The notes beneath the pieces are model-generated. The model searched no databases and was not told where the DNA came from. It saw nothing but the letters and a program-made list of their open reading frames with translations. The translations under genes were made by a program, and so were the position numbers. Shown piece after piece: positions 11,969 to 52,082 of a stretch of 64,000 nt of DNA. The stretch is from NCBI GenBank assembly GCA_947503525.1, contig CANNEA010000002.1, positions 186,001 to 250,000 of the forward strand, written 5' to 3'. Each line of letters starts with the position of its first letter. The stretch's first letter is position 1. Origin of the DNA: an uncultured Carboxylicivirga sp. Lineage in GTDB: Bacteria > Bacteroidota > Bacteroidia > Bacteroidales > Marinilabiliaceae.

Positions 11969-11980
11969 GTGAATAACTAA

Positions 11981-25763: not shown

Positions 25764-25780
25764 ATTATTGTAGAGTTTGC

Positions 25781-25967
25781 GGAGTTGTGGAGTGTGGTTG
25801 ATATAGAGTGTTTTATGTGTGTAGTTTGAGTGTAGTAAGTGTGGAGTACCGGAGTGAAATCAATCATCAAAAAAGAATGATGAATTTATATAATTGTGGA
25901 GTGAGTGGAGTTGTATGGAGTGATAAGTGTCTGAAAAACAATCATCCTACACAACTCCACAAACTCC
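25781..25967. repeat. GGAGT repeat cluster, candidate origin
   Basis: Seven GGAGT copies (25781, 25789, 25843, 25851, 25898, 25907, 25917) and two inverted ACTCC copies (25954, 25963) fill the 228-bp gap between the DUF3987 and primase-like genes. TTGTGGAGT...GGAGTTGT can pair with ACAACTCCAC...ACTCC to form a long imperfect hairpin around 25895-25967. The strand is strongly G-rich, unlike its surroundings. Possible replication origin or oriT. Confidence 0.55.
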
Positions 25968-25991
25968 ACTAAAACGAGAATATAGTCCAAG

Positions 25992-34485: not shown

Positions 34486-34699
34486 GATAGATATTTTTTC
34501 TATTTGAATTGATAGATGCAAAATAAGTTTGCCAAAGCTGATTGAGGTTTGTATGCCTGTCAATTAGGTTTGCTTAAAGCTAAATTTGCCTTACATTGAA
34601 GTATTTGATAATGAAAATGACCAGTATTTACACCTTTGTGGATATTTTATAAACAAGGTTTTCAGAATGAAGAAGTAGTTTTATCATCAAAAAGAAATT

Positions 34700-36247
34700 A
34701 TGCGAAGAGTCTGTTTGTTAGCGATACTTTTATGGGCTTTGGGACTTGTGTCTTATGCTTTTTCTAAAGGCAAGCCTAATGTTTTATTCATCACTGTTGA
34801 TGATATGAACTGGAATTCTATTGGAGCTTATGGATGCCAGATACCCGAAATAACACCGAATATTGACCGCCTGGCTGAGGGAGGTATGCGTTTTGAGCAA
34901 GCCTATGTGCAGGCGTCCAACTGTTCACCTTCGCGCAATGTGTTTCAAACCAGCCGTTACCCACATCAAAGTGGCATGCGTGGTTTCTTTTATGTGGAGG
35001 CTGGTTTTAAAACCTTGCCCGAGGTATTAAAAGAGAGTGGATATATAACCGGAGTCATCAACAAGGCAGCCGATAGTAGTCTGAGTCCCGATTTTGAAAA
35101 GTATTGGGATGTTAACCTCAAGTTTAATGGAGCCGAGAAACGTTCCGCCATTTCTTATGGACAGCAAATGGAGAAATTTCTTTCCACTGTTGAGGAGGAA
35201 AAGCAAGCCTTTTATTGTGTGGTGAACGTGGCCGACCCGCATAAACCGTTTTTCAACGATATCAAATCTAAAAAGCAAGGATTTGATGCCTTTGCGCCAT
35301 CAAAAGTGTTCTCGATAGATGAGGTGGAGGTACCGGTTTTTTTGCCGGATGCACCAAAAGTAAAACAAGAGGTGCTTAATTACTACAACTCGGTGAAACG
35401 TGGCGATGATTGTGTGGGAGCTATTCTTGAGGTGCTGAAGAAGAGTCAATATCATGATAAAACCATTGTGATTTTTGTATCGGACCATGGTATGCCTTTA
35501 CCTTATGCCAAGTCATCAGTTTATCCCAATGGTATCCGAACTCCATGGATTATTGCCTGGCCGGGGGAGATTGAGGCAGGTGCCGTCAATACTGTTAATA
35601 TGATTTCGGCCATCGACTTTATGCCTACTGTATTGGATATAGCTGGCATAAAACAGCCATCAGGTGTTGAGGGACAATCGTTTTATCAGGCATTGAAAGG
35701 AAAAGAATTGACCAGCTCTGAATATGTGTTTGCCCAATTTGATGAGAATGCCGGTGGTGTGCCACGGCCTTCACGAACCGTATTGACAAAAAAATATGGT
35801 TATGTTTTTAATGCCTGGGCAACAGGTAAATATCCTTTTAAATGTTCGGCAGATGCTTATGCTACCCATAAGTATATGAAAGCACAAGCAAATTCAAATC
35901 AGCAAGTGAAAGAGCGCTACGTTCATTGGGTGTATCGCTGTGTTGAGGAACTCTACGATTACGAGAACGACCCAAATGCTTTAAATAACCTAATTGATGA
36001 TCCGGAATATAAAGACATCGCTAATCAACTGAGGACTGAATTGGAAAAGCAAATGCAGGCCACCAATGATTATTTGCTACCGGCGTTTAAAGTGCGCAAC
36101 AATAAGGAGGCATTGAATATATGGATGCAGGAAGAAGATCGGAAAGCCAAACAGCGTGCTGAGCAGTTGCAGTGGAAGCGCTATAAGAATCGAAGAGGTG
36201 CAACTAAGGGGCATATTCAATTGTATCAGTCGCACCTAAACGAATAA
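34700..36247 (+). CDS. S1 sulfatase, S1_8-like
   Basis: A 515-residue exported sulfatase with a cleavable signal peptide and no lipobox. D34-D35 (TVDDMNW) and formylglycine Cys75 (NCSPSRNVFQTSRYPHQSG) are present. The SRNVFQTSRYPHQSG continuation and VSDHGMPLPYAKSSVYPNGI resemble the S1_8/heparan N-sulfatase-like branch and differ from the other five sulfatases here. The C-terminus is long and basic. It sits alone directly upstream of the HTCS regulator. Confidence 0.9.
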   Translation: MRRVCLLAILLWALGLVSYAFSKGKPNVLFITVDDMNWNSIGAYGCQIPEITPNIDRLAEGGMRFEQAYVQASNCSPSRNVFQTSRYPHQSGMRGFFYVEAGFKTLPEVLKESGYITGVINKAADSSLSPDFEKYWDVNLKFNGAEKRSAISYGQQMEKFLSTVEEEKQAFYCVVNVADPHKPFFNDIKSKKQGFDAFAPSKVFSIDEVEVPVFLPDAPKVKQEVLNYYNSVKRGDDCVGAILEVLKKSQYHDKTIVIFVSDHGMPLPYAKSSVYPNGIRTPWIIAWPGEIEAGAVNTVNMISAIDFMPTVLDIAGIKQPSGVEGQSFYQALKGKELTSSEYVFAQFDENAGGVPRPSRTVLTKKYGYVFNAWATGKYPFKCSADAYATHKYMKAQANSNQQVKERYVHWVYRCVEELYDYENDPNALNNLIDDPEYKDIANQLRTELEKQMQATNDYLLPAFKVRNNKEALNIWMQEEDRKAKQRAEQLQWKRYKNRRGATKGHIQLYQSHLNE

Positions 36248-36287: not shown

Positions 36288-39200
36288 ATGAAAGTAGTTA
36301 TTAGGTATTACACAGTTTTACTTTTTGCATTATTTTTTTTGAGCCAAACGTCAAATGCTTATGAAATTAAGCACCTAGGCGTTGAGGATGGATTAAGTAA
36401 TGGTTATGTCAATGACTTTGAGGTGGATTCATTGGGTTATATGTGGATTGCTACATCCAATGGCCTGAACCGTCACTCGGGGTATGAAATTCGCAACTAC
36501 ACTTTTAATCAAAAGAATAATAAATGGGGAAACAGAGTGATTGATTTGATCAATCACGAGGGTGAGCTTTTTGTTATTAACAGGGGAGGGAGTATTCACC
36601 GGTATCGTTATGAACACGATGACTTTGTGCTTATTGGTGAAGCGTATGGGCATGATTTTATATCCGCTTGTCTGGTGGATGGTAGCCATATGGTTATTGG
36701 TATGGTGAATGGCTTGTTGGTGTTCGATATTACTACCAAACGTTTTAGTAAAGTGCTTCACCCAGAGCTCACCTATAACCGTCATTTAAAAGCAAAAGAT
36801 GGTGCAGTGTATTTAGCCACATCTAAAGGTATTCATACCTTCCGGTTTCATAAAGGCCAACTTACAAAGAGCAAAGTGTATCTCATGAATATGGATATTA
36901 TTCACTTTGATATTGATGAAGGCAAGCGGCTTTGGGTAGGTACTGAAAATAAAGGATTGATCATTATTGATGACCAGGAGAAAGTCCATCGCTCTGATTT
37001 ATTTACATCAGCAGGTAGTTACAATACAGTAAGAGGCATTGCCTTCAACAAGCAAGGGGAAGCCATTGTTGCTGTTGATAGACTTGGCTTATTTGTTATG
37101 GATTCATCACTAAAGGTCAAACAGCAATTCGAACATAATCCGGATAATGCCAACAGCATCAGGCAGAATAGTATTCATGATATTTACATTGATGAGTTTA
37201 ATACGTATTGGCTGGCCTCAGGAGAGACTGGTATTGATATACTTTACAATACCAATCAACCATTTAGGAATATTGCACATATTCTGAATGAGAAAAATAG
37301 TTTACACAACAACAGTGTGCGATCAATCTGTGAGGATCATTATGGTAACATATGGTTTGGTACTGAAGATGGATTGAGTCGCTTATCGCCCGATGGTCAA
37401 TGGAAGGCCTTTAATCAATCCAGACACTTAACGGGCATTCCGGTCCTGTCCATTACTAACTACCGCGACCAACTATTATTAGGTAGCTATGGTGAAGGCC
37501 TTATGCAACTTAATCCGCAGAATGGCAGGCTTGTTTTTGATAAACAAGTTGAGAAACCACCTCATAACTTGGTATTTACAAGCTTTGTAGACGGAGATGA
37601 AGTGTGGTTTGGTGGTACTGATGGCCCTGTTATGTGTTATGTCAATGGTCAACTAAATCAAACCTATCCGGTCGGAAGTGCCAAATATTTTACTAAAGGT
37701 AAGGATGAAACCATGTTTGTTGGCTGTATGAATGGTGTTTTTAAGTTGAATAAGCGTAACGTCAGTCATCGTCGATTGACTTTTTCAACCGAAACAGCCA
37801 ATAACGTGCTGACCAATGTATTTGGTTTGTATTACGACCAAGAACATAACTTATGGATTGGTAATGACAGAGGCTTGTTTGTTTATGATATAGATACGGA
37901 CCAGGTAACGCAGTTAAGTCCTGAAAATAATAAGCAACTAGGTATTGTATATTCTATATTGGATGACCATCGCAATAATTTGTGGCTGGCAGCAAGCACG
38001 GGCCTCTGGAAGCTGGATGTTAAGATGGGCCACTTCAGACATTACGATGCTAAAGATGGAGTTATGGCCAACGAATTTGGCTTTGGGGCATCTGCTAAAT
38101 TAAAAAGTGGCGAATTGGCTTTTGGGGGACCTGATGGAGCTGTTATTTTTCATCCTGATAGTGTGAGGGAATATAAGAACACAGGAAAGCTTAGGGTATC
38201 AGAATTTCTCATTAACGGATTAAGGCCTGATAGCAATTTTATTGCAAAAGATATTAATTACCAGGATGAACTTAAGCTGACGTATAACCAGAATTCACTG
38301 TCGTTTGCATTTGAAGTGGTTGAATTACATGGTCCACGTAAAAGTATTTTTGAATGGCAGTTAATTGGCTATGATGAGCAGGTGATCAAGTCATCTGATA
38401 ACCGTATAGCGAGTTATAGCAAGCTCAGTCCAGGTGATTATCAATTGCTTGTCAAAGCTATTTCTCCTGATGGTAAATATCTTGATACCGATTATCATTT
38501 GAAGATTGAAATATTAAATCCGTTGTGGTTAAGATGGTGGGCTTTTGTTTTCTATGCCTTTGTTATTTTAGGCTTGATAGCACTGATAATAACTACAAAC
38601 CGAACCAAACAAAAGCAACGTTTTAGCGATGAAAAAATACGATTTTTTGTGAATGTAGCCCATGATATACGTACACCAATTTCGCTTATTCAGTTGTTAA
38701 TTGAGCAGCTACCAAAATCTGAGAAAAGCAAGGAGACCGTAGAGCTAATCATGCGAAATGCAGGAAGCCTTAATGAATATGTTTCGCAGTTATTGGAATT
38801 TCAAAAAGCAGAACGACAGAAGCTTAAGTTAAAAGTGCAAGAAGTAGATTTAAAGAAATTACTTAAATCAATATCGAATGATTTTCAACCACTTCTTGAG
38901 AAAAAATCAATGGATTTGGAGTTATCATCGCATGATGTCAATCTTTGGGTGGATAAAGTAAAAATCAGTCGTGTTTTCAATAATTTGATATCCAATGCCA
39001 TTAAATATGGCGAGGAAGGTGGAAGTATTAAGATAAAAACAGAATTACTGGAAGGTAAACTTAGAATCGATTTTATCGACAACGGAATGGGTGTGCCTGA
39101 AAAACAACAAAAGCAAATTTTTACCCGATTCTCACGAGCCGACAATGTGCGCTTAAGTGGTATTGCAGGTACTGGTATTGGATTGATGCTTGCTAAGCGA

Positions 39201-40118
39201 ATTGTTGAATTACATCAGGGGCATATCTACCTCAAGAGTCAGGAAAATATTGGGTCTACCTTTTCTGTTGAGTTGTTACTTGGTTCAGGACATTTTAAAG
39301 ATGACGAAATTATTATCAAAGACGAGCATGATAAGGCTGGTCATAAAGTTTCAGATATTATTGGCGAGAATAAGTTGGTATTATTGGTTGAAGATAATGA
39401 GGATTTAAGATCGACAATAAAAACGGAGCTTGAGAAAAGTTATCGTATAATTGAAGCTCCCAACGGTAAAGAAGGTTTGGTATTGGCTGTTGAAAAGAAC
39501 CCGGATTTAATCATTACTGATGTTATGATGCCACAGATGAGCGGCAAAGAATTGTGCCAGGTAATAAAGAGTAATTTCAAAACCAGTCATATTCCGGTGG
39601 TGATGATAACTGCACTTAGCGGTGTTGATGATAAAGTAGAAGGGCTAGAAGTGGGGGCCGATGCTTATGTTGAAAAACCCTTTAGTATAGAAGTATTAAA
39701 AGCCACGATTAATAATTTACTACGAACAAGGCAGGCGCTTGGACAGGAGGCTGATAAAGCGGAAGAGAAGAAAGCACATTATACATCTCCTGATGAAGAA
39801 TTCTTGTCAAATGCTGTTCAGCTTATAAAGGAGAACATAACGGACAGGGATTTTACCATTGATGTGCTTTGTGAACGATTAGGCTTTAGTCGTTCCAACT
39901 TATTCAGAAAGTTAAAAGGCTTAACGGGTATGACACCGTCTGACCTTATGATAAAAATAAAATTGAACCATGCCGTAGAATTGTTCAAATCAAATCAAAA
40001 TATGCGCATTGCCGATATTGCGTATGAGTCGGGTTTTCACGATCCTAAATATTTCAGCACAGTCTTCAAAAAGTTTCATGGGAAAACGCCAAAAGAATTT
40101 ATGGAAACATTGGATTAG
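36288..40118 (+). CDS. Hybrid two-component system regulator (HTCS) of the PUL
   Basis: A 1276-residue single-protein sensor-regulator. Signal peptide, then a periplasmic region of repeated Reg_prop blades (for example DSLGYMWIATSNGLNRHSG, YGNIWFGTEDGLSRL) forming two propellers, a Y_Y_Y domain, a membrane helix near residue 750, HisKA with H792 (NVAHDIRTP), an ATPase domain (GTGIGLMLAK), a receiver with D1078 (TDVMMPQM) and a C-terminal AraC HTH. HTCS proteins bind an oligosaccharide breakdown product in the periplasm and switch on the sus genes. It precedes the enzyme-SusCD operon at 40446, its likely target. Confidence 0.96.
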   Translation: MKVVIRYYTVLLFALFFLSQTSNAYEIKHLGVEDGLSNGYVNDFEVDSLGYMWIATSNGLNRHSGYEIRNYTFNQKNNKWGNRVIDLINHEGELFVINRGGSIHRYRYEHDDFVLIGEAYGHDFISACLVDGSHMVIGMVNGLLVFDITTKRFSKVLHPELTYNRHLKAKDGAVYLATSKGIHTFRFHKGQLTKSKVYLMNMDIIHFDIDEGKRLWVGTENKGLIIIDDQEKVHRSDLFTSAGSYNTVRGIAFNKQGEAIVAVDRLGLFVMDSSLKVKQQFEHNPDNANSIRQNSIHDIYIDEFNTYWLASGETGIDILYNTNQPFRNIAHILNEKNSLHNNSVRSICEDHYGNIWFGTEDGLSRLSPDGQWKAFNQSRHLTGIPVLSITNYRDQLLLGSYGEGLMQLNPQNGRLVFDKQVEKPPHNLVFTSFVDGDEVWFGGTDGPVMCYVNGQLNQTYPVGSAKYFTKGKDETMFVGCMNGVFKLNKRNVSHRRLTFSTETANNVLTNVFGLYYDQEHNLWIGNDRGLFVYDIDTDQVTQLSPENNKQLGIVYSILDDHRNNLWLAASTGLWKLDVKMGHFRHYDAKDGVMANEFGFGASAKLKSGELAFGGPDGAVIFHPDSVREYKNTGKLRVSEFLINGLRPDSNFIAKDINYQDELKLTYNQNSLSFAFEVVELHGPRKSIFEWQLIGYDEQVIKSSDNRIASYSKLSPGDYQLLVKAISPDGKYLDTDYHLKIEILNPLWLRWWAFVFYAFVILGLIALIITTNRTKQKQRFSDEKIRFFVNVAHDIRTPISLIQLLIEQLPKSEKSKETVELIMRNAGSLNEYVSQLLEFQKAERQKLKLKVQEVDLKKLLKSISNDFQPLLEKKSMDLELSSHDVNLWVDKVKISRVFNNLISNAIKYGEEGGSIKIKTELLEGKLRIDFIDNGMGVPEKQQKQIFTRFSRADNVRLSGIAGTGIGLMLAKRIVELHQGHIYLKSQENIGSTFSVELLLGSGHFKDDEIIIKDEHDKAGHKVSDIIGENKLVLLVEDNEDLRSTIKTELEKSYRIIEAPNGKEGLVLAVEKNPDLIITDVMMPQMSGKELCQVIKSNFKTSHIPVVMITALSGVDDKVEGLEVGADAYVEKPFSIEVLKATINNLLRTRQALGQEADKAEEKKAHYTSPDEEFLSNAVQLIKENITDRDFTIDVLCERLGFSRSNLFRKLKGLTGMTPSDLMIKIKLNHAVELFKSNQNMRIADIAYESGFHDPKYFSTVFKKFHGKTPKEFMETLD

Positions 40119-40445: not shown

Positions 40446-41699
40446 ATGAAGATTATCTATGTTATCGTCGGTTTGGTGCTTTTAGCAAGTACTTTGGCAT
40501 TGACAAAACAGAAAACAGATGATGCCACTGAAAAAGTAATTAATGATTACAACTATGTAATCAGCACACAAACGGTTGGGTCGAAATATAAATTCACCGA
40601 AGAATCCATGTTGGTGGAAACGGCACGGCAGATAAAAGACATGGGCTCCAATCTGCTTAAATTCTCTATGCACCCACGATACTGCACTGAGAATTATGGT
40701 CTGCCTGAAAATAAAGAAATAACTTCTTTAACAAAGCTGGCACAATTAGAGCCATCAGTAAAAGAGGTGCTTAATATGGATTTTAAATATTACCACATCT
40801 GGGTGTATGGCTTTTCCCAATATTTGCCTGAACCTCCAGGACAGAAAAATGATACCACGCAAGTTAAGTTCATTGGTGGCTATGAAGATTGCTATGCTGA
40901 TGCATTGTATGATGAGTTATATGAACTGACCGCCTACATGTTGAAAGAGTTTAATAACTCCGGCAAGGTATTTTACCTGGGCAATTGGGAAGGTGACTGG
41001 CATTTACGTTGGCACTACGATCGCACAAAACCAGCTGATGAAGCTACATTGGAAGGTATCAAAAAGTGGTTTAAAATACGTCAGAAGGCCATTGATGATG
41101 CCAAGCGCGATATAGAGTATAAGAATGTTGAGATCTATCATTATATGGAGGTCAATCTCATACAGCGTGCTATAGATTTAGGTGATAAGGTATTAACCAA
41201 TTCAGTCTTGCAAGAAGTCAATCCTGATTATGTATCCTATTCAACTTACGATGTAACCAACCCGCCTAAAACAGAAGCTGAGTTGATTACGAAGCTGAAA
41301 AAGGCTTTGGATTACATTGAATCGCATCTGCCCGCAAAAGAAGGACTCCCTGAAGGTAAGCGAGTTTGGATAGGCGAATATGGTAGCCCATTCATCAGCC
41401 ATGGCGAAGATGTGCAAGATGAGCGTGCTAAATGGGTGATTAAAGCAGGCTTAGAGTGGGAGTCTCCTTTTATTCTTTTTTGGGAAATGTATAATAACGA
41501 GATTAAGAAGGAAACAGGCGAACAAGTGGGTTACTGGATGATCGATGATGAAGGTAAAAAACAGAAGATTTGGAAAACGCATAACAAGTTTTATAAAGAA
41601 AGTCAGCGTTTTGTAGAAGAGTACTATCAGGAACATAACAAGGTACCATCCTTAACTGCCTTTAAGGAAGCAGCATTAAATTTTAAAGCACTTAAATAA
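40446..41699 (+). CDS. Secreted putative glycoside hydrolase, unassigned family (paralogue A)
   Basis: A 417-residue protein with an N-terminal signal or anchor. It is a paralogue of the next two genes. Three Glu residues are invariant in all three: E182 (GNWEGDW), E235 (HYMEVN) and E311 (IGEYG). A terminal FWEMYNNE block resembles the last strand of a TIM barrel. IGE near the end and an earlier Glu are compatible with a retaining clan GH-A-like enzyme, but the usual Asn-Glu pair is absent (N-W-E). I cannot place it in a known family. First gene of the operon leading to SusCD, so probably a backbone-cutting enzyme in the periplasm. Confidence 0.7.
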   Translation: MKIIYVIVGLVLLASTLALTKQKTDDATEKVINDYNYVISTQTVGSKYKFTEESMLVETARQIKDMGSNLLKFSMHPRYCTENYGLPENKEITSLTKLAQLEPSVKEVLNMDFKYYHIWVYGFSQYLPEPPGQKNDTTQVKFIGGYEDCYADALYDELYELTAYMLKEFNNSGKVFYLGNWEGDWHLRWHYDRTKPADEATLEGIKKWFKIRQKAIDDAKRDIEYKNVEIYHYMEVNLIQRAIDLGDKVLTNSVLQEVNPDYVSYSTYDVTNPPKTEAELITKLKKALDYIESHLPAKEGLPEGKRVWIGEYGSPFISHGEDVQDERAKWVIKAGLEWESPFILFWEMYNNEIKKETGEQVGYWMIDDEGKKQKIWKTHNKFYKESQRFVEEYYQEHNKVPSLTAFKEAALNFKALK

Positions 41700-41705
41700 A
41701 TAGCT

Positions 41706-42914
41706 ATGCGTATTTTAATGGTTTTAATATTTTCAGTCCTCCCTTTTGCTTTGCTTAAAGGACAAAGCAAGGAAGGTGCTACCTATGATAAGGCGCCAAA
41801 GCTGGAGGATTATAATTTTGTATTAGGTACACAAGCCATAGGTGCTAAATATAAGTTTACAAAAGACTCTTATATCGTTGAGCAGGCCAAACATATACGT
41901 GGCATGGGCTCAAATATTCTAAAGGTTTCATTGGGTAAAAACTATACCAAGTCTTATGGTATGAAGCCGGTTTCAGGCATTAAATCAACGCTCGATTTGC
42001 TTAAGAAGAAAAAGGATTACCAAAAAGTGTTGGATATGGATTTTAAATACATATTCCTTTGGGTACATTCTTTTACCGAAGCCAAATGGCAGGATGGACT
42101 GGATGCGAATGAAAAACTGATGTTGTACCGCGAGATGTATGAATTAACCGAGTATATGTTGAAAACATACAGTGGTACTGGCAAAACCTTTTTGTTTGGG
42201 AACTGGGAGGGTGACTGGTTATTGCATGCAGGTTACGATAGAAAAAGTACCCCTTCAGATGAACGGATTCAGGGCATGATTGATTGGTTTAACATCCGTC
42301 AGATTGCGGTGGATGATGCTAAGAAAAACACGCCGCACGAAAATGTGGAGCTGTGGCATTATATTGAGTTAAATCTGGTGCTGAAAGGGATGCAGGGAGA
42401 GAAGTGCATTGTCAACAGTGTATTACCTAATATCAATCCCGACCTGGTCTCTTACTCCAGTTATGAAATCATCAAAAAGAAAGAGACCTACGAGGACTTG
42501 AAAAAGGCAGTAGGTGAGACGATGGATTATATTGAAAGTAAGCTACCGGCTAAAGAAGGTATTCCGTTTAAACGCCGTGTTTACATTGGTGAGTACGGCT
42601 ACCAAACCAATAAAAAACAGGATGATGACCAACAAAACTTCCTGACTAGACGAATGATGAAAGTGAGCCTGGATTTGGATTTACCTTTCTCATTGCATTG
42701 GGAGATGTATAATAACGAATATACAAAAGCAGGTGTTTCCAAAGGGATGTCGATGATTAGTGAAGAAGGTAAAAAGAAGCCGGTTTATTATCTGCACCAG
42801 AATTACTATTCCGAGATGAATGAGTACCTGAAAAACTATAAAAAGGAACACAAGACATATCCCGAATATGAAGTATTTAAACAGAAAGCGATTAAGGTGC
42901 TTGATAAGCTTTAA
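41706..42914 (+). CDS. Secreted putative glycoside hydrolase, unassigned family (paralogue B)
   Basis: A 402-residue protein with a signal peptide (cleavage near LLKGQ). It is close to paralogue A throughout: FKYIFLWVHSF, YELTEYMLK, GNWEGDW (E168), HYIELN (E221), NPDLVSYSSYE, IGEYGY (E296) and HWEMYNNE. It starts 6 bp after paralogue A. The Glu spacing is the same (53 and 75-76 residues), so the active site is probably shared while loops differ, suggesting different positions or decorations on the same glycan. Confidence 0.7.
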   Translation: MRILMVLIFSVLPFALLKGQSKEGATYDKAPKLEDYNFVLGTQAIGAKYKFTKDSYIVEQAKHIRGMGSNILKVSLGKNYTKSYGMKPVSGIKSTLDLLKKKKDYQKVLDMDFKYIFLWVHSFTEAKWQDGLDANEKLMLYREMYELTEYMLKTYSGTGKTFLFGNWEGDWLLHAGYDRKSTPSDERIQGMIDWFNIRQIAVDDAKKNTPHENVELWHYIELNLVLKGMQGEKCIVNSVLPNINPDLVSYSSYEIIKKKETYEDLKKAVGETMDYIESKLPAKEGIPFKRRVYIGEYGYQTNKKQDDDQQNFLTRRMMKVSLDLDLPFSLHWEMYNNEYTKAGVSKGMSMISEEGKKKPVYYLHQNYYSEMNEYLKNYKKEHKTYPEYEVFKQKAIKVLDKL

Positions 42915-42929
42915 ACCAAAGAAAGATTT

Positions 42930-45344
42930 ATGAAGAAATTTTTATACATACTGATTGGTTTATTCTGCGTAGTAAGCATCAGCGCACAGATTGACTTTTC
43001 CGGGGCAATTTACTCTGTTAAAAGTGGAAATTGGTCTGATGCGACGCTATGGTCGGGCGGTAAGGTTCCGGGAGCTGGTGATGATGTGCGAATTGAGAAT
43101 TATCATTCGGTTCATATCGATGTGCAGGGCAGTGTATCAGGCGAACGAGTGCCGCTTTGTCGTCATCTTAAAATCAAACAAACAGCCCGATTAAGCATGG
43201 GGCATGATACCGATAACTTTGCTAAAGACCTGGTGATTAACGGAAGCATCGAATGTCAGGGTACATTCTCGGCTGGTCGTTTGCAGCCAGGAGCTACAGG
43301 TGACGGTTCCTTGTACAAGTATAACAGCCGGATTTATGTGAACCTTCAGGACGCTACAACTTACTTAACAGGTAAGGGTTATTTTCATCCTGGTACCTTA
43401 AACATGTTTAGTGAGAGTGGCGAAAAAAATGTGATGATTGATTTGTATAACCTGGTATGCGATGAAAATCTGGTTGTAAAGTCAGATAACAGGGTAAGGG
43501 TAACCACCGAGCGATATTCGTACATCAATGTAAAAGGGACGCTGGGTTTAACTGGCAGTACTTATCAGTGGAGCTCAGCAACGGCTAAAGCCAATTTAAA
43601 TGTAAATGGCTTAATCGTTTGTAACGATATCAGTTTTTTTACTAAAAATACAGGAGTTGGAGAAAGTTCCTCTATTACCATTAATGATGGCGGCAGCATT
43701 TATACCCAAATGATTAATAATGGTAACCTGAACAAGAAATCAGAAGCGGCAGCCTTCAACTTGTCAATTGCCCCAAATGGTTTATTGCGTCTGGGGGAAG
43801 GTGTCAATTTTACCAACCTGACTTTGGATAACACTAACTTTGGTTTGGTAAATAATGGCGATGTTCGAGTTCATTATAGCGAAACCTTAACTCCTCCATC
43901 AGAGGTTCTTAATCTGGTTAATCAGTACAAGCCTTCGGTGAATAATGAAAAGGAGAGACTGCGTGATATTTTTGGAGCCTCGCACATTGCCGGGTGGTAT
44001 CATTTTACCGAAAAACCCTTTATGACGGAGGGCTTAGATTATTATGAAGAGTTTGGTTCAACTGCCATTAAAACAACTTTGTCGGCAATTAATGGAAAGA
44101 TGAGCTCTGCCTACCCGTTTAATCATAGCTGGAGCAATGTCAACCGGGTGGTGGAACTGCTAGATGTACCTGAGATACAGGATTTATATAGTCGTTCAAA
44201 TATCAAAACACATACTTTTTGGGTGACATCCAAAAATAAGGGAGACTATAAAGATGGACCCGATTTTCAGCATGCCTCTTATATAGATGAGGAGCAACAG
44301 TGGTATGAGCTAACGGTAAAACTGCTGGAGACCTATGGACACATGGATAAAACCTTTGTTTACCAAAACTGGGAAGGCGATTGGATGTTACGTGGACAGG
44401 GTATTCTATGGGAGAAGGATCCATCACTGATACCTGATGATGTGGAATGGACGATTGCAGGTATGGCACGTATGTTCAGAGCGCGTCAGCGTGGTACAGA
44501 ACGCGCACGTAATGAATTTCCGAATGCCACAGCAAGGGTGATGCATGGGATTGAATTTAATAAGTTATGGATGAAAGATAATAACGGCAATCGCCTGACC
44601 ATGATGGATAATAATACTCCGTGTTTGGCAGCTGACGTTATACCGCATTGCCGTATTGATCTGGCATCATGGTCGGCATACGACGGAGGATGGGAGAACG
44701 CAGAGTACCCTTTCCCATCGGCAATGTGGACAGGGCTGGAGATGGTTAATTACTACACTACAGAAACAGGGGAATATGGTGATATGTCTGTGCAAATTGG
44801 TGAATTCGCCATTAACGAAAATGCTCCGTACTCAAGTCATAGTCGTTCGCAGATTCGAACCAAGTATGATAAATTATGTGGTTTAGCTTTAGCCATGGAT
44901 TTACCTTATTTCTACTTGTGGAATTTATACTGTTCAGGTCAACAGGGTGCGCCTGACGGATTTACCTGGGAGAAGGGGGTTGAATATGAAACCAGTTTTC
45001 TTTACGAGTGGATGGATGGAAAATGGTTAATCGAACCGGATGGTACCTGGGGACATGCTGCAGAATTTTTGATGGAACAATTTGATACTACAACCAATGT
45101 AATGAATAATGGCATAGATGGATTAAGCTATCAAATTTCTCCAAACCCGGTAATTAATTACGCAAAAGTAAAAGGACTCCATAATGCTGAACTTAACATA
45201 TTTTCCTTAAGCGGACAATTATTAAAATCCTACACAAACTATAATAGTGAGCTAATTGATATGGGGCGATTGCCTGTTGGCACTTATGTACTCATAATTA
45301 ATAATAAGCAGGGCTCTGTCGCTTTAAAATTTATTAAATTGTAA
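42930..45344 (+). CDS. T9SS-secreted putative glycoside hydrolase with N-terminal beta-rich domain (paralogue C)
   Basis: An 804-residue protein. After a signal peptide, residues about 25-330 form a beta-helix-like region of the kind beginning SGNWSDATLWSGGKVPGAGD. Residues about 345-715 are homologous to paralogues A and B, with E482 (QNWEGDW), E542 (HGIEFN) and E625 (IGEFA) conserved; the last block is LWNLY instead of WEMY. Residues about 735-804 are a type A T9SS sorting domain (ISPNPVINYAKV, LPVGTYVLIINN). It is therefore probably on the cell surface or released, and would make the first cuts in the polymer. Some active-site surroundings differ from A and B. Confidence 0.75.
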   Translation: MKKFLYILIGLFCVVSISAQIDFSGAIYSVKSGNWSDATLWSGGKVPGAGDDVRIENYHSVHIDVQGSVSGERVPLCRHLKIKQTARLSMGHDTDNFAKDLVINGSIECQGTFSAGRLQPGATGDGSLYKYNSRIYVNLQDATTYLTGKGYFHPGTLNMFSESGEKNVMIDLYNLVCDENLVVKSDNRVRVTTERYSYINVKGTLGLTGSTYQWSSATAKANLNVNGLIVCNDISFFTKNTGVGESSSITINDGGSIYTQMINNGNLNKKSEAAAFNLSIAPNGLLRLGEGVNFTNLTLDNTNFGLVNNGDVRVHYSETLTPPSEVLNLVNQYKPSVNNEKERLRDIFGASHIAGWYHFTEKPFMTEGLDYYEEFGSTAIKTTLSAINGKMSSAYPFNHSWSNVNRVVELLDVPEIQDLYSRSNIKTHTFWVTSKNKGDYKDGPDFQHASYIDEEQQWYELTVKLLETYGHMDKTFVYQNWEGDWMLRGQGILWEKDPSLIPDDVEWTIAGMARMFRARQRGTERARNEFPNATARVMHGIEFNKLWMKDNNGNRLTMMDNNTPCLAADVIPHCRIDLASWSAYDGGWENAEYPFPSAMWTGLEMVNYYTTETGEYGDMSVQIGEFAINENAPYSSHSRSQIRTKYDKLCGLALAMDLPYFYLWNLYCSGQQGAPDGFTWEKGVEYETSFLYEWMDGKWLIEPDGTWGHAAEFLMEQFDTTTNVMNNGIDGLSYQISPNPVINYAKVKGLHNAELNIFSLSGQLLKSYTNYNSELIDMGRLPVGTYVLIINNKQGSVALKFIKL

Positions 45345-45360
45345 CTAAAGACATAATCAA

Positions 45361-48300
45361 ATGAAAAAATTACTAATCTTATTATTGTTCCTGGTGCCAA
45401 TAGGCCTTATTGCACAGGAACTACACATTTCTGGAAAGGTATTAGACAAGGATACAAATGAGCCTCTACCTGGTGTTACCGTCTATATTAAAGGAACAAC
45501 AAGTGGAACCATAAGTGGTAATTCAGGTGAATTTAATATAAAGGCAAAGCAATCAGACATATTGGTTTTCTCTTTTATTGGGATGAAAACAAAGGAATTA
45601 GTAGTAGGTAATGAAACTAGTTTAACCGTTTACATTGAACCGGAAATGTCTGAATTGGATGAAGTAGTAATTAGTGTTGGTTATTTTAATGTAAAGAAAA
45701 GTGATTTAACGGGGTCGGTAGCTCAGGTAACATCACATCAGATGGAAAAAGTGCGCACGAACTCGGTTGAGCGTATGCTGCAAGGACAGGTAGCTGGTGT
45801 TGTGGTAAATGAAAACTCAGAACCGGGAGGAGGCGTAAGTATTTCCATTCGTGGTACAAACTCAATGTTGGGAGGAACACAGCCATTATACGTAGTTGAC
45901 GGTATTCCTATTGATCCGATTCAGGATGCGCAAGGAAATGCCAACTCTGGGCAATCTCAAAGCTCTTTAAGCTTCTTGAATCCCAATGATATTGAGAAAA
46001 TGGAGGTGCTGAAAGATGCGGCCGCAACGGCTATCTATGGAGCCCGTGGTGCAAATGGGGTAGTGGTGATTACCACCAAGCAAGCCGATGGGAAAAGTAC
46101 AAGAGACCAACTCTCTGTAACTGCTGACTTTGCTATGTCGGAGCTCAACCAGCAAATTGATGTGCTTAACGGACCTGAATTCGAAGGATATATGAATCAG
46201 CGTACTATCAATCAATTGTATATTGATATTACCAACCCTGGTCGTGACGGAATGGTTTTCGATGGCACACAAGACTTAACACCTGAAAACTTTGAGGAGT
46301 TAGATGGTTATACCTTACCATATCCAACTACAACAGGCGTTAATACCAACTGGCAGGATGAGGTGTATCGTAAAGCATATTCCAAAATGTTTAATGTAGC
46401 ATACCGTGGAGGTGACCAAAACAGTAATCTATCAGTTAGTTTAGGTTTGTCTGATAATCAAGGGGTGATTATAAATACAGATTACAAGCGCGCCACTTTT
46501 AATATGAATGGCATGCGCAAGGCCTTTAATAAAAAGGTTGAGATTTATTCCAAAACCAATGCGTCATATGGAAAAGGAAGGGCATCATCAGTAGGGAATG
46601 GACAAATGTATTCTGACCGAAGTGTGGTATCCAATGCTTTACGTTTTCAGCCAATATTTGAGAAGTTGGAGCCAGGTCAGGATGATGATATTTATGCAGA
46701 ATTAAATGAGGGACAACTTTTGTCCAATCCATATACTTTGGCAAAATATGTAGAAGATGAAAAAACAGCTATTACCTTTAATCAGGCATTATCTGTTGTT
46801 GGTAAAATTACACCTCATTTGAGTGCTACTGCTAAGGGTGCAGTCAATTATCAAATGAGTTTGCGAGATAGTTATTATCCCACTTTTACAACTCGAGGTC
46901 GCCGTAATAATGGTGAAGCAACGCAATCCTACAATCAAAATATTAAAACGTATGCAGAAGCCAACTTGCATTATGTGAAGAAGTTTGGTCAGCATAAAGT
47001 AGATGCAATCGCAGTTGGAACCTATGAGGTCAATAATATCAGAGCCACTTTTAATAAGGCTTATGGATATGGTAGTGATATTACAACATATTATACTTTT
47101 GAATCAGCAACCGATATCATGGTTCCTGTAACACGATTTACAAGAGTTGGGTTATTATCAGGACTTTTTAGAGTTGGTTATAACTACAAAGGGAAGTATT
47201 ACGTGGATGTTAATGCGCGTATGGATAGCTCTTCCAAGTTTGCAGAAAATAAAAAGAGTGCTTTTTTCCCTTCTGTAGCCATAGCCTGGAGAGCATCTGA
47301 AGAGCCATTCTTAAAAAATGTAGAATCTATCTCAAATCTTAAGTTTAGAGCGTCATATGGTAAAACAGGTAGTAACCCAATTGCAGCCTTCCAATCATTA
47401 GGTGTAATGTCACCAATACGCTACAATTTCAATAACCAGGTGACAGTGGGTTACTTTGAACAAAATCTGGCTAACCCTAATTTGACATGGGAAACAACGG
47501 ATCAATATAATGCGGGTGTAGATTTCAGTATGTTTAATTCACGCTTAAATATGACATTTGATGCCTACTATAAGTTGACTCACGATTTATTGCAATTAGT
47601 AAACTTGCCTGCTTCGAACGGATACGCTACCAAAGTGGATAATTTTGGAGAAGTGGAAAATAAAGGTATTGAGCTGACCATAGGAGGAGATATTATTCGC
47701 AATAAAGACTGGAATTGGAATGTACTTGGAACCTTTAGTGTTAATAGAAATAAATTGGTAAAGCTGAATTCAAATCTTGAATACCAATTAGGACCTGCTG
47801 TTGGTTATGACAAAACCTATCCATCTATGTTTATGGAAGGTCAACCATTAGGTATTTTCTGGGGAGCTCAAACGGATGGTATATATGCCGATTGGGATGA
47901 GGCTGCAGCCAGTGGAATTAATGACGCAGCAGCTGGTGAGATTAAGTACATTAACCACTCTGTTGATTACGATGAAGAAGGTAATGCATTGGATGTTCAA
48001 ACCATTAACTTCGATGATTATGTGCAAATTGGTGATCCAAACCCTGACTTTACGGCTTCAATAAATAATACTGTGAGCTATAAAAACTGGGATTTAAGCA
48101 TCTTGTTTACCGGCCAGAAGGGTGGCGACATACTATGGGTTGATTCATGGCCCTTAAATGCCTTAAAGAAAAGTACCAATGTAGCAACTGATGCCTACAA
48201 TGATTCGTGGAAAGCACCATTGACTGTAACACCAGTTTATGATGAGGTACTGGAAGACTATACCTACGAGGTAGCTTATAACCCGACTGTAGGTCAAACC

Positions 48301-48606
48301 TCAGGAGTAGCCAATCCAGCAGCTGCAACCGATGGAGGACAGCGAGCAATCGTTTCTGATCGTCAGATTTACGATGGTTCGTTTATCAAATTAAAAAACA
48401 TCAATGTGGGTTATACCTTCCGATTTAAAGATAAAAAGAGCCTGAGACTATATGCTTCAGGACAGAATTTATTTACCTGGACCAACTACCCTGGTTATGA
48501 CCCTGAGGTGCAGGCTTTCAATAAAGACCCACAGCGAAGAGGAATAGACTTCGGAGCTTTTCCTGGAACGAGAAACTATGTGTTTGGTGTTAAACTTGAT
48601 TTCTAA
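45361..48606 (+). CDS. susC: SusC-like TonB-dependent outer-membrane transporter
   Basis: A 1081-residue SusC-family protein: signal peptide (GLIAQ), carboxypeptidase-D-like domain (about 22-100), plug domain (about 115-235, with SIRGTNSMLGGTQPLYVVDG) and a 22-stranded barrel ending NYVFGVKLDF. It forms the oligosaccharide import pore with SusD at the outer membrane, powered by TonB. It lies 16 bp after paralogue C and 18 bp before susD in a continuous operon. Substrate specificity is not readable. Confidence 0.96.
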   Translation: MKKLLILLLFLVPIGLIAQELHISGKVLDKDTNEPLPGVTVYIKGTTSGTISGNSGEFNIKAKQSDILVFSFIGMKTKELVVGNETSLTVYIEPEMSELDEVVISVGYFNVKKSDLTGSVAQVTSHQMEKVRTNSVERMLQGQVAGVVVNENSEPGGGVSISIRGTNSMLGGTQPLYVVDGIPIDPIQDAQGNANSGQSQSSLSFLNPNDIEKMEVLKDAAATAIYGARGANGVVVITTKQADGKSTRDQLSVTADFAMSELNQQIDVLNGPEFEGYMNQRTINQLYIDITNPGRDGMVFDGTQDLTPENFEELDGYTLPYPTTTGVNTNWQDEVYRKAYSKMFNVAYRGGDQNSNLSVSLGLSDNQGVIINTDYKRATFNMNGMRKAFNKKVEIYSKTNASYGKGRASSVGNGQMYSDRSVVSNALRFQPIFEKLEPGQDDDIYAELNEGQLLSNPYTLAKYVEDEKTAITFNQALSVVGKITPHLSATAKGAVNYQMSLRDSYYPTFTTRGRRNNGEATQSYNQNIKTYAEANLHYVKKFGQHKVDAIAVGTYEVNNIRATFNKAYGYGSDITTYYTFESATDIMVPVTRFTRVGLLSGLFRVGYNYKGKYYVDVNARMDSSSKFAENKKSAFFPSVAIAWRASEEPFLKNVESISNLKFRASYGKTGSNPIAAFQSLGVMSPIRYNFNNQVTVGYFEQNLANPNLTWETTDQYNAGVDFSMFNSRLNMTFDAYYKLTHDLLQLVNLPASNGYATKVDNFGEVENKGIELTIGGDIIRNKDWNWNVLGTFSVNRNKLVKLNSNLEYQLGPAVGYDKTYPSMFMEGQPLGIFWGAQTDGIYADWDEAAASGINDAAAGEIKYINHSVDYDEEGNALDVQTINFDDYVQIGDPNPDFTASINNTVSYKNWDLSILFTGQKGGDILWVDSWPLNALKKSTNVATDAYNDSWKAPLTVTPVYDEVLEDYTYEVAYNPTVGQTSGVANPAAATDGGQRAIVSDRQIYDGSFIKLKNINVGYTFRFKDKKSLRLYASGQNLFTWTNYPGYDPEVQAFNKDPQRRGIDFGAFPGTRNYVFGVKLDF

Positions 48607-48624: not shown

Positions 48625-50214
48625 ATGAATAATTTAAAATATATCACACTATTACTATTGGGTATTGTTGTTTTTTCTTCCTGCGAAAGCTGGTTAGAAG
48701 AAGAGCCAAAAACTCAAATTGGAACCGATTACTTCTATCAGGATAAAGATCAGGCCTTAATGGCATTAACAGCAGCTTATGCGCAATTAAAAACAGGTGC
48801 TGGTTATTATAACCAGCAGTTTTTATCCAATGTATATGCTTCATCCGACCAGGGCACATCCAGTTGGAAACATGGTGATTTCAATAAAGGAATTTTGACG
48901 TCTACCAACGGTACTTTGCCAGAGACATGGAACCAGATTTACGTATCCATACGTGATGCCAACAATGTGATTTACAATGTGGCCGATGTGGATATGGATG
49001 AAACAATCAAAGCCCGTATTATTGGAGAAGCTAAGTTTTTACGTGCACTGCACTACTTCAATCTGGTGCGTTGCTGGGGTGAAGTGCCATTACGAACCTT
49101 GCCTGTTCAACCGGGTGAAGAAGGTGGATTACCTGTTTCATCAAGAACGGATATTTATAATGTAATTATCAGTGACTTGAAATATGCCTCGGAGTTTTGT
49201 TGGGGGCGCGGCGAAGTTCGCCTGGGCGAAACGAACGATTTAGGTCGTGCTACTGATGCATCAGCACAGGCTTTATTGGCTCGTGTGTATTTACATATCG
49301 CCTCATCAGCGCGTTGTGCAACAGAGGGAAGTGAAGGTTGTGCACCATATGCTGAATTTGGTTCTGATTACAAAGCCTATTACGATTCATGCAGTGTAAT
49401 GTGTGATTCAGTAATAACGCAGCCAGGTTATGCTTTGACAACATCAGTAGAAGAATGGCAAACTATTTTTGATGCAGATAAAGGTAACAATCCGGAGATG
49501 TTATTTGATATCCAGGGATCATCAGCAACAGGACAAGGTACTGCTGTTTCTAACCTCTTTAGCCCACGTAATGCCGGATTAAGTGGCGGTGGTTGGGGCG
49601 GTACCAATAAAATGGTTGCCGGCTTTACGCAAAACAGTGTTGATTTCTCTGATGTACGCTTTGATAATGGCATCATACACTATTACGAGGATAATACTTA
49701 TCGTTATGAGTTGTTACCTAACTATAATGGTTATGCACGTTATATTCTAAGTTCAGGTAATCGAAAAGGCTCCGTTTGGACCGTTTTTACTGCGAAATAT
49801 ATAGACAGCGATGCGACTACCGAATACACCAGTCAGCAAAACTGGCATGTGATTCGTTTGGCTGATGTTTATCTAATGCGCGCTGAAGCTTTAGCGGAAA
49901 TTAATGAAGATCCTGCAATAGCTAATTCTGATGTTAATATGCTTCGTACCCGTGTAGAAATGGCTGGTTTGGATTTTACAGGCTTGACCATGGATGAATT
50001 CCGCGAAGCGTTATTGCGTGAACGAGCAGCTGAATTTTTCATGGAAGGTCAGCGCTGGTTTGACCTGACTCGTCTGGGAGTTTATGAAGAGAAGTGTAAG
50101 ATTGCTTTTGATCCTAATAATCAAGGTAAGATTCAAGGGATACGTGGGCCGGAGGATTATATCTGGCCAATTCCTATCACGGAGACTTCGGCAAATGATA
50201 ATATTGACGAATAA
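48625..50214 (+). CDS. susD: SusD-like surface glycan-binding lipoprotein
   Basis: A 529-residue lipoprotein (VVFSSC, Cys20) with SusD features: the N-terminal WLEEEPKTQIGTDYFYQD, TPR-like helices (AKFLRALHYFNLVRCWGEVP) and a C-terminal RERAAEFFMEGQRWFDLTRLG. It caps SusC and delivers oligosaccharides to it. Directly downstream of susC and 11 bp before a sulfatase. Confidence 0.96.
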   Translation: MNNLKYITLLLLGIVVFSSCESWLEEEPKTQIGTDYFYQDKDQALMALTAAYAQLKTGAGYYNQQFLSNVYASSDQGTSSWKHGDFNKGILTSTNGTLPETWNQIYVSIRDANNVIYNVADVDMDETIKARIIGEAKFLRALHYFNLVRCWGEVPLRTLPVQPGEEGGLPVSSRTDIYNVIISDLKYASEFCWGRGEVRLGETNDLGRATDASAQALLARVYLHIASSARCATEGSEGCAPYAEFGSDYKAYYDSCSVMCDSVITQPGYALTTSVEEWQTIFDADKGNNPEMLFDIQGSSATGQGTAVSNLFSPRNAGLSGGGWGGTNKMVAGFTQNSVDFSDVRFDNGIIHYYEDNTYRYELLPNYNGYARYILSSGNRKGSVWTVFTAKYIDSDATTEYTSQQNWHVIRLADVYLMRAEALAEINEDPAIANSDVNMLRTRVEMAGLDFTGLTMDEFREALLRERAAEFFMEGQRWFDLTRLGVYEEKCKIAFDPNNQGKIQGIRGPEDYIWPIPITETSANDNIDE

Positions 50215-50225
50215 GAATTGATGAG

Positions 50226-52082
50226 ATGATGAAATTTGTGAGTATAGCTGTATTAAGTCTGGTGTTATGGCCAGGCTTGGTACAGGCCAAGAAGAAGAAA
50301 AAACAGAATGAGCGACCTAATGTGGTGTTTATTATCTCTGATCAACATAAGAAAGATGCTTTGGGTTGTTATGGCGATGAACTGGTGATTACGCCTAACA
50401 TTGATGCACTTGCCAAAGAAGGTGTTCGTTTAACCAATTGTTATGTTGCTGCACCGGTATGTGCACCTAGTCGGGCAGCTTTGGTTACGGGTATGTATCC
50501 TTTTGCCAATGGAGCGCCTTATCATAAGGCACCTGTTCAAATGACTAATGGTAAAGTAAAACATTTGGGTTCGGGATTCTTACGAGAAACAGGATACCAT
50601 GAGGGTATTGTAACCATCGGTGAGGCTTTTCAAGCCAATGGTTATATCACTGCTTCACCCGGTAAAATGCATGTGCATGGTGAGTTGCAGAAGAATGTAG
50701 ATGAGGATCATCCCGATGGTAACGATTTGGGCTGGGATGAAATCAATACCCGTTACTATACACATTTTCCGGGAGGACATTACCAGGATGAGGTGGGCGA
50801 AGATGCTTACCAACGTTATCGTCAGTTTAAAAAATATGCTAAGGTGTATAAAGGAGGACCAGGCCATCTGAATGAAAAATACGAGCCAGCATTGGTCAAG
50901 AAAGATGAAGATAACTTTGACATGGTCGTGGCTCGCAAATCGGTGGAGTTTATCAAAAAACGTGGTAAAGATGGTGAAAACTTCTTCTTGCACGTTGGCT
51001 TTGAAAAGCCACACCCACCTTTCACAACCACTCAGAAGTATCTGGATATGTATGATCCGGCTGACTTCACTTTGCCTGAGACAGCTACCGAATGGCATCA
51101 AAATGGTAAATACCCCTGGATACCGGATTGGATTCATTCAGGCTGGCCTAATAAATACCCGGGAGCAACAAAAAATATGATGGCCTCTTATTATGCCTGT
51201 GTTACACAGGTGGATGATATGGTAGGGCGCGTGGTTAATGCACTAAAGGAAAATGGATTGTATGATAATACCATTATTGTTTATACTACCGATCATGGCG
51301 AGCATTTGTTTGAACACGGTTTACGCGGTAAGCACTGTATGCTGGAAGATGCCGTGAATGTGCCTTTTATCATCTCCTATCCTAAGGAATTTCCGAAAGA
51401 TGAGGTCAATGATATGTTAGTGAGTTTTGTTGATATCATGCCTACACTTTGTGAGCTAACAGGAGCCGAAGTGCCGGAAACGGCGCAGGGTATTTCTGTT
51501 GTAAATAACCTGAAGAATGGTACTCGCCTGCTTAATCGACCGGTTTTATCAGAGTATCGTAGCGGTAACTACAATGGTTTCAAGAATATTAAAAATTTGC
51601 CATCGCGTATGTTTCGCATGGATGATTACAAGTTTATTTATACGCATGGAATCATTGATCAGCTTTATAATGTGGTGAATGATCCGGACGAATTAAATAA
51701 CCTGGTACTGGACCCGGCTTATAAGGATATGGTACGCGATTTCTGTTTCCATACCTTGGTAGATAAGCCAATTTTGGAATATAAGAATCTGGATCTATCC
51801 ATTAAGTATCGAACCATTATCTGGGAAGCTTTTGATCAGGCTGATAGCTATGCTGTTTATTATGCTCCGGAATACAACCCCGGAGCAGCAACAATGATTG
51901 CTGAAGGATTAACGGAATTAACTTACAAAGTGCCTAAGCAAGGTTTTTACTGGGTAATGGCGAAGCCTAAATACACCAGAACATCACCTCGACTGGGAGA
52001 GCTGCCTGTTTACCTGGAAGAATACACCTACCAACTGCCCATAACAGATGCAATTGAGTTTGTACCTAAGGAGAAGAAGTAA
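50226..52082 (+). CDS. S1 sulfatase with C-terminal extension
   Basis: A 618-residue exported sulfatase with a signal peptide (VQA-K). D39 (ISDQH) and formylglycine Cys79 (VCAPSRAALVTG, a CxPSR variant with Ala) are present, with TTDHGEHLFEHGLRGK as the distal metal site. Beyond the sulfatase fold, about 100 C-terminal residues (from roughly 520) look like a fibronectin-like beta domain (SYAVYYAPEYNPGAATMIAE). It closes the susCD operon and is followed by a terminator, so it should be expressed together with SusCD and the three paralogues. Confidence 0.92.
   Translation: MMKFVSIAVLSLVLWPGLVQAKKKKKQNERPNVVFIISDQHKKDALGCYGDELVITPNIDALAKEGVRLTNCYVAAPVCAPSRAALVTGMYPFANGAPYHKAPVQMTNGKVKHLGSGFLRETGYHEGIVTIGEAFQANGYITASPGKMHVHGELQKNVDEDHPDGNDLGWDEINTRYYTHFPGGHYQDEVGEDAYQRYRQFKKYAKVYKGGPGHLNEKYEPALVKKDEDNFDMVVARKSVEFIKKRGKDGENFFLHVGFEKPHPPFTTTQKYLDMYDPADFTLPETATEWHQNGKYPWIPDWIHSGWPNKYPGATKNMMASYYACVTQVDDMVGRVVNALKENGLYDNTIIVYTTDHGEHLFEHGLRGKHCMLEDAVNVPFIISYPKEFPKDEVNDMLVSFVDIMPTLCELTGAEVPETAQGISVVNNLKNGTRLLNRPVLSEYRSGNYNGFKNIKNLPSRMFRMDDYKFIYTHGIIDQLYNVVNDPDELNNLVLDPAYKDMVRDFCFHTLVDKPILEYKNLDLSIKYRTIIWEAFDQADSYAVYYAPEYNPGAATMIAEGLTELTYKVPKQGFYWVMAKPKYTRTSPRLGELPVYLEEYTYQLPITDAIEFVPKEKK

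Follow-up and report, generated by a model that had tools for sequence, protein, structure and literature searches.

Three tandem paralogues, A, B and C

The window, a stretch of 64,000 nucleotides from an uncultured Carboxylicivirga sp. (GenBank assembly GCA_947503525.1, contig CANNEA010000002.1, positions 186,001 to 250,000), carries three tandem genes, here called A, B and C, between the gene for a hybrid two-component regulator (HTCS) and that for a SusC-like transporter. An earlier note on this DNA proposed that the three are paralogues and form a candidate new glycoside hydrolase (GH) family. The open reading frames (ORFs) it gave are correct, the homology is upheld by BLASTP, and the nine glutamates it pointed to lie at the residues it named. 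The three genes and the parts of C are as follows, in window positions.

40446..41699, + strand: gene A, 417 aa; hydrophobic N-terminal segment without Cys, GH-A-like barrel
41706..42914, + strand: gene B, 402 aa; N-terminus resembling a signal peptide, then a GH-A-like barrel
42930..45344, + strand: gene C, 804 aa; signal-peptide-like N-terminus, all-beta region, barrel and type IX secretion system (T9SS) tail
43008..43874, + strand: all-beta region of C (residues about 27-315), from the secondary structure of the model, with weak G8 similarity
43962..45074, + strand: GH-A-like barrel of C (residues 345-715) with E482, E542 and E625
45135..45338, + strand: C-terminal T9SS type A sorting domain of C (TIGR04183, E 1.4e-9)

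In BLASTP, A and B are 40% identical over 416 columns (E 1e-101), and residues 347-667 of C are 25% identical to B (E 8e-23) and 21% identical to A (E 1e-14). The 6.56 Mb genome contains three copies of the family at E <= 1e-3, with one extra match at chance level (E 0.57). A, B and C fall into three separate clades. We read them as three long-diverged members of one probable glycoside hydrolase family that appears unclassified in Pfam, NCBIfam and the PDB sequence set.

Judged from the N-terminus only, A and B are predicted to be periplasmic. C is predicted to be at the surface or secreted, and its T9SS tail scores 37.8 bits in NCBIfam (TIGR04183, cut-off 23) and 26.2 bits in Pfam (cut-off 27). 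The all-beta region of C resembles G8 at E 0.036, and a related protein at locus L009 does so at E 0.0026, both below the Pfam cut-off; the region is probably a beta-helix that serves in binding or as a stalk.

Predicted fold and catalytic residues

The three conserved glutamates lie in the contexts NWEGDW, HxxExN and IGE in A, B and C. Their codons in A and B are listed here.

40989..40991, + strand: A E182, the counterpart of B E168 (predicted acid/base)
41148..41150, + strand: A E235, the counterpart of B E221 (probably accessory)
41376..41378, + strand: A E311, the counterpart of B E296 (predicted nucleophile)
42207..42209, + strand: B E168, after beta4 (predicted acid/base)
42366..42368, + strand: B E221, at the end of beta5 (conserved, probably accessory)
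42591..42593, + strand: B E296, at the end of beta7 (predicted nucleophile)

AlphaFold2 models of B (pLDDT 94.6, pTM 0.90) and C (pLDDT 86.4) are (beta/alpha)8 barrels, and the nearest folds to both, among the matches listed by the fold searches, are clan GH-A type enzymes. The "TIM-barrel-like ending" described earlier does belong to a barrel, but to one whole barrel rather than to an ending. In the model of B, E168 is three residues past beta4 (161-165) and E296 is inside beta7 (292-297); in the model of C, the counterparts E482 and E625 also have the beta4 and beta7 end placement of clan GH-A. Profile alignment pairs E296 with the Glu of GH39 and of GH5. The fold matches and the glutamates at the expected barrel positions thus point to a glycoside hydrolase of clan GH-A type. 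In the models, the catalytic pair is most likely E168 (acid/base) and E296 (nucleophile). The middle glutamate, E221, looks accessory, because haloarchaeal relatives lose either E221 or E168.

Several observations weigh against a simple placement in clan GH-A. Foldseek TM-scores are modest (0.42-0.56 on the query, for the chains listed). The GH39 profile alignment covers the second half only, and the GH5 alignment pairs WEGDW with the stretch preceding the GH5 NE motif. A profile of neighbouring GH2 genes, themselves GH-A, does not align (0.1%), so kinship to GH-A at the sequence level depends on GH39 and GH5. In clan GH-A an Asn usually directly precedes the acid/base Glu. The family motif is N-W-E, with the Asn two residues ahead of the putative acid/base, and we therefore file the family as GH-A-like, with provisional clan membership.

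Conservation of the three glutamates

All three glutamates are present in each of 118 near-full-length rows, three of them from the window, and F162, W167, D170, N223, S251, G295 and W332 (B numbering) are also invariant there. To obtain this set, 13 of 138 matches were dropped as own-genome or duplicate loci, 8 of the remaining 125 were dropped as partial, and identical sequences were removed. The 78 loci behind it came from searches with two patterns, [GQ]NWEGDW and [IV][GA][ASG][KW]Y[KH]FT[EK]; because of these patterns, conservation of E168 in the 78-locus set is partly selected, while that of E221 and E296 is unselected. Eight of eight extra near-full-length relatives, found by profile with no use of the NWEGDW pattern, keep all three glutamates, and in a ninth, partial relative only E296 is seen.

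The exceptions are three haloarchaeal proteins. Two near-identical Halomontanus proteins have Ser at E221, and one Halobaculum protein has Gln at E168, the predicted acid/base, a point against our main reading. The glutamates are thus not strictly invariant, as had been claimed earlier, although the claim holds throughout the 118 rows and close homologues show no loss of all three. E296 is the sole one of the three kept in every examined sequence that covers the site.

These patterns bear on two alternatives. One or two of the paralogues could be transglycosylases or glycan-binding pseudoenzymes. Three diverged copies sharing one operon suggest split roles, and E168 is lost in Halobaculum and E221 in Halomontanus; however, A, B, C and all 118 rows keep the three glutamates and a Trp after beta8, and we think this quite improbable. 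An inverting enzyme with E221 as base, or some other unusual pair, would account for the invariance of E221 and N223 in 118 of 118 rows. We give this very little credence, since the models place E168 and E296 at beta4 and beta7 as in retaining GH-A enzymes and since E221 is Ser in Halomontanus.

Comparison with described families

We found no described family for the barrels: neither Pfam, NCBIfam nor the PDB sequence set gave a match, in agreement with the earlier note. Nothing in A or B exceeds a Pfam cut-off, and in C only the T9SS tail was matched, above the cut-off in NCBIfam but just short of it in Pfam. TatD, DUF1481, PocR and similar assignments for the barrels were rejected on scores below cut-off in Pfam and NCBIfam. 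In a Pfam scan of 95 relatives, 48 families came up with E values of 1 or lower, and the best E is 0.002 among the 25 of 48 listed. For a profile of the same relatives, eight PDB sequences were listed with E no higher than 10 (the best 0.27), including one GH5 chain, 3zmr, at E 2.3. The GH5 and GH39 models (PF00150 and PF01229) had no match to window proteins at E up to 10 and are absent among the 25 of 48 families listed. PDB entries exist for GH157 and GH164, yet neither appears among the matches listed for the family profile up to E 10.

Kinship to GH99 was rejected at an hhalign probability of 0.8% against 11 GH99-type ORFs (L195-L209, mostly weak PF16317 matches), and the WbsX profile does not align with the family. 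Chains of GH168 or sulfated-fucan enzymes are not among the eight PDB sequences listed, and no GH168 sequence was compared directly. We saw nothing in support of a GH168 or fucanase assignment, again with no direct GH168 comparison. The matches listed in the open-licence PubMed Central (PMC) literature include no description of the family.

Some recent CAZy families have no Pfam model. The family could thus belong to an existing CAZy family that lacks a Pfam or NCBIfam model and a solved structure; GH195 was published as late as 2026 (PMC13063451). Against this stand the three window barrels, which have no match at the Pfam gathering score, and the best E of only 0.002 for the 95 members among the Pfam families listed. 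In addition, a profile of GH99-type proteins fails to align (GH99 is the relative described for GH195), and the motif NWEGDW was not found in open-licence PMC papers. We regard membership in an existing family as improbable. The fold and the likely mechanism are known ones; what appears to be new is the family, unclassified in the three resources searched.

Distribution of the family

A contig profile scan with the A/B/C alignment gave 151 encoding stretches, of which 78 loci on 74 contigs were retained (overlapping loci L011/L018, L015/L016, L042/L062 and L053/L063 were merged). Record labels include Bacteroidota, Pseudomonadota (Sphingomonadaceae, Gammaproteobacteria), Verrucomicrobiota, Planctomycetota, Armatimonadota, Lentisphaerae and Bacillota, plus one metagenome-assembled genome (MAG) labelled Mycoplasmatota and one labelled Myxococcota, and MAG labels may be wrong. 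In all, the labels span at least eight bacterial phyla, plus haloarchaea, and many of the records are MAGs. Three haloarchaeal plasmid records match B, and no phage record matched A.

Within groups the family is rare. It was found in 1 of 395 phylum genomes, 4 of 393 order genomes and 7 of 119 relatives, and in 7 of 194 genomes from the phylum to which genome G800 belongs (centre genomes included throughout). Of the same-genus genomes listed, 4 of 14 carry it, own included. Two Legionella records hold single relatives (L072 and L074), and the neighbourhood drawn for L072 shows none of the other gene types of the window. L179, L180 and L181 are the haloarchaeal plasmid relatives in which E221 is replaced by Ser or E168 by Gln; close to the Halobaculum one lie a GH99-like gene and also a recombinase.

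The surrounding locus

The genes around A, B and C are listed below.

27177..28190, + strand: GH130 phosphorylase-like gene, no signal peptide seen (PF04041, E 5.9e-50)
28222..29856, + strand: sodium:solute symporter (PF00474, E 3.4e-80)
29871..31355, + strand: sulfatase 1 (PF00884), which recurs alongside the family
31976..33553, - strand: sulfatase 2 (PF00884)
33583..34563, - strand: alpha/beta hydrolase, possible esterase (weak Pfam and NCBIfam matches)
34700..36247, + strand: sulfatase 3 (PF00884)
36288..40118, + strand: HTCS
45361..48606, + strand: SusC-like TonB-dependent transporter
48625..50214, + strand: SusD-like protein (PF07980)
50226..52082, + strand: sulfatase 4 (PF00884)
52146..53459, + strand: sulfatase 5 (PF00884)
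53588..55075, + strand: T9SS-tailed beta-helix-like protein (choice-of-anchor Q)
55140..56705, + strand: sulfatase 6 (PF00884)
56721..57578, + strand: AraC-type regulator (PF12833)
57659..58645, + strand: mannose-6-phosphate isomerase, type I-like (PF20511, E 2.6e-12)

GH130 is thus at the left end of the locus and the isomerase at the right, with A, B and C between the HTCS and SusC. Intergenic gaps from A to sulfatase 4 are 6, 15, 16, 18 and 11 bp; the gap between the HTCS and A is 327 bp. GH92 had no match among the 20 locus and flank proteins scanned.

The locus may lie in or beside an integrative element, because a phage-type integrase gene (window 58754-59968) is to its right and DUF3987/DUF6371 genes (24408-26978) are to its left. 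A Fic/DOC family protein is encoded upstream (20803-22347).

Neighbourhoods and fusions of relatives

Gene order was drawn for 37 of the 78 loci. Ten of these (L005-L008, L013, L023, L024, L026, L028 and L029) have HTCS-A-B-C in direct order, and L012 has the same order with one gene in between. In the Flavobacteriaceae loci L013, L023, L024, L026 and L029, GH130, symporter and sulfatase 1 directly precede the HTCS, and SusC directly follows C. The GH130 position in the Carboxylicivirga/Labilibacter loci would be outside the fetched flank, and in L009 the locus genes are rearranged. In the Verrucomicrobiota loci L038, L050, L053 and L070 the family is beside a GH130 gene that is 48-52% identical to that of the window.

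One Polaribacter locus, L045, has a GH130 93% and a symporter 91% identical to the window copies, but its A is only 75% identical. This difference suggests a recent lateral exchange of part of that locus.

The neighbours of the family were counted on the 74 contigs and on 40 control stretches (Fisher tests). Sulfatase genes occur on 35 of 74 family contigs and 5 of 40 controls (p 1e-4), GH130 on 18 and 0 (p 2e-4), GH2 on 18 and 1 (p 0.0015), either GH130 or GH2 on 34 and 1 (p 2e-7), and the symporter on 10 and 0 (p 0.011). As a yardstick, 20 carrier genomes of 3-10 Mb have 0-5 GH130 Pfam matches each, about 0.01 per 20 kb.

Other counts are less favourable to our main reading. SusC is weakly enriched (25/74 versus 6/40, p 0.024) and the HTCS is not (26/74 versus 9/40, p 0.12). 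No sulfatase is visible on 39 of 74 contigs, and neither GH130 nor GH2 on 40 of 74; some of these absences arise because contigs are short. The counting profiles were built from family-locus genes, which favours those loci; the controls come from nine Bacteroidota genomes only; and the loci are related rather than independent. The p values are therefore indicative only.

Fusions also link the family to its neighbours. The C orthologue of L009 (Marinoscillum), 1390 aa long and 42% identical to window C, has a segment (residues 816-1209) that is 44% identical over 399 columns to the 53588-55075 product (E 3e-96). Because its homologue is fused to a C orthologue, the beta-helix-like protein is probably part of the same surface machine as C. 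In L066, ORF 10447-11979 combines a sulfatase part, 58% identical to sulfatase 4, with the second half of a domain like B (50%). This copy may be a broken one, since the family gene is divided over two ORFs at that locus. A family member is fused to CBM2 in L043, where a GDSL match is sub-threshold, and another to a GDSL esterase domain in L077. The family thus extends beyond marine loci for sulfated glycans, as these CBM2 and GDSL fusions and the members in Sphingomonadaceae, Verrucomicrobiota MAGs, Legionella and haloarchaeal plasmids indicate.

Proposed substrate and pathway

GH130 enzymes are described, in part of PMC6298971, as acting on beta-mannosides. The window GH130 is nearest to beta-1,2-mannoside phosphorylases, under the curated cut-offs; its nearest PDB entry is a 1,2-beta-oligomannan phosphorylase (E 9e-59). 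Two GH2 neighbours were compared with PDB entries, and the one in L014 is nearest to a beta-mannosidase (E 7e-57). Two results pull the other way: the window GH130 scores 232.6 bits against the beta-1,2-mannobiose phosphorylase model, whose curated equivalog cut-off is 450, and the GH2 neighbour in L022 is nearest to an exo-beta-D-glucosaminidase (E 7e-66). Sulfated mannans and fucans had both been named as candidates. Because of the linked GH130 and GH2 genes we favour a beta-mannoside glycan rather than a fucan. With six sulfatases and the mannose-6-phosphate isomerase added to this evidence, our best guess at the substrate is a sulfated beta-mannoside glycan.

GH-A enzymes act on many beta-glycans. 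The same GH-A-like family could thus cut a backbone other than beta-mannan (for example sulfated xylan, galactan or rhamnan), with GH130 and the isomerase serving a mannose side group only. The 40 of 74 contigs that show neither GH130 nor GH2 would fit this, and the CBM2 and GDSL domains suggest several substrates. However, GH130 recurs next to family genes in Bacteroidota, in MAGs of Verrucomicrobiota, in a single Sphingomonas MAG and in a MAG labelled Haloplasma, and is on none of the 40 controls. A non-mannan backbone is unlikely in our view, although it is the strongest of the alternatives.

The analysis shows homology, a predicted fold, conserved residues, a recurrent neighbourhood and two domain fusions, whereas catalysis, retention, substrate and cell locations are inferred. 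On balance we favour an unclassified GH-A-like family of retaining beta-glycanases that acts on a sulfated beta-mannoside glycan, with C outside the cell and A and B in the periplasm. Each barrel would cleave an equatorial (beta) glycosidic bond by retaining double displacement. In this route E296 would be the nucleophile and E168 the acid/base, and E221 would have an accessory role. T9SS-secreted C would cut the sulfated polymer extracellularly, and SusC and SusD would bring the oligosaccharides in. Sulfatases and periplasmic A and B would then shorten these, and the symporter would deliver a small mannoside to the cytoplasm. There GH130 would phosphorolyse the mannoside, and mannose-6-phosphate isomerase would channel the product into glycolysis.

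We also speculate, at a little under even chances, that the three old subfamilies act in sequence (C as surface endo-cutter, then periplasmic A and B). They would provide the backbone-cutting step so far missing from a pathway for sulfated beta-mannan whose last stage is phosphorolysis by GH130 in the cytoplasm, and would form a new GH-A-like family whose records bear the labels of at least eight bacterial phyla (often on MAGs) and of haloarchaea. If so, a recurrent sulfatase-rich locus otherwise without a backbone-cutting enzyme would be supplied with one, and proteins annotated as hypothetical in the plasmid records examined would gain a family name. Moreover, the question of sulfated beta-mannan would become directly testable, since there are three enzymes to assay, their catalytic residues are predicted and the range of substrates is limited.

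Comparison with known systems

By fold, and among the matches listed, the family is closest to the clan GH-A enzymes GH39, GH5_18, GH1, GH164, GH53 and PslG, at 7-14% sequence identity. The A/B/C family differs from the clan in having NWEGDW in place of the NE motif and an extra conserved Glu at beta5, and it has no family-level sequence match there.

The locus resembles the sulfated alpha-1,3-mannan pathway of Polaribacter, which uses GH195 and GH92. Both involve marine Bacteroidota, sulfatases and a mannose product, with an endo-enzyme secreted by the T9SS and additional periplasmic enzymes (PMC13063451 for Polaribacter; in our locus the product and the locations are predicted). The same source describes GH195 as a distant relative of GH99 whose target is an alpha-linkage. 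In contrast, a GH99-type profile does not align with our family, and the 20 proteins scanned here lack a GH92 match. The GH130 gene and the GH-A-like fold point instead to beta-linkages.

The beta-mannan polysaccharide utilization loci of North Sea Flavobacteriia also combine GH130 with SusC and SusD, and part of PMC6298971 gives them GH26 and a non-sulfated beta-mannan target. Unlike these, the window locus has six sulfatases, and its candidate endo-enzyme is from the unclassified A/B/C family.

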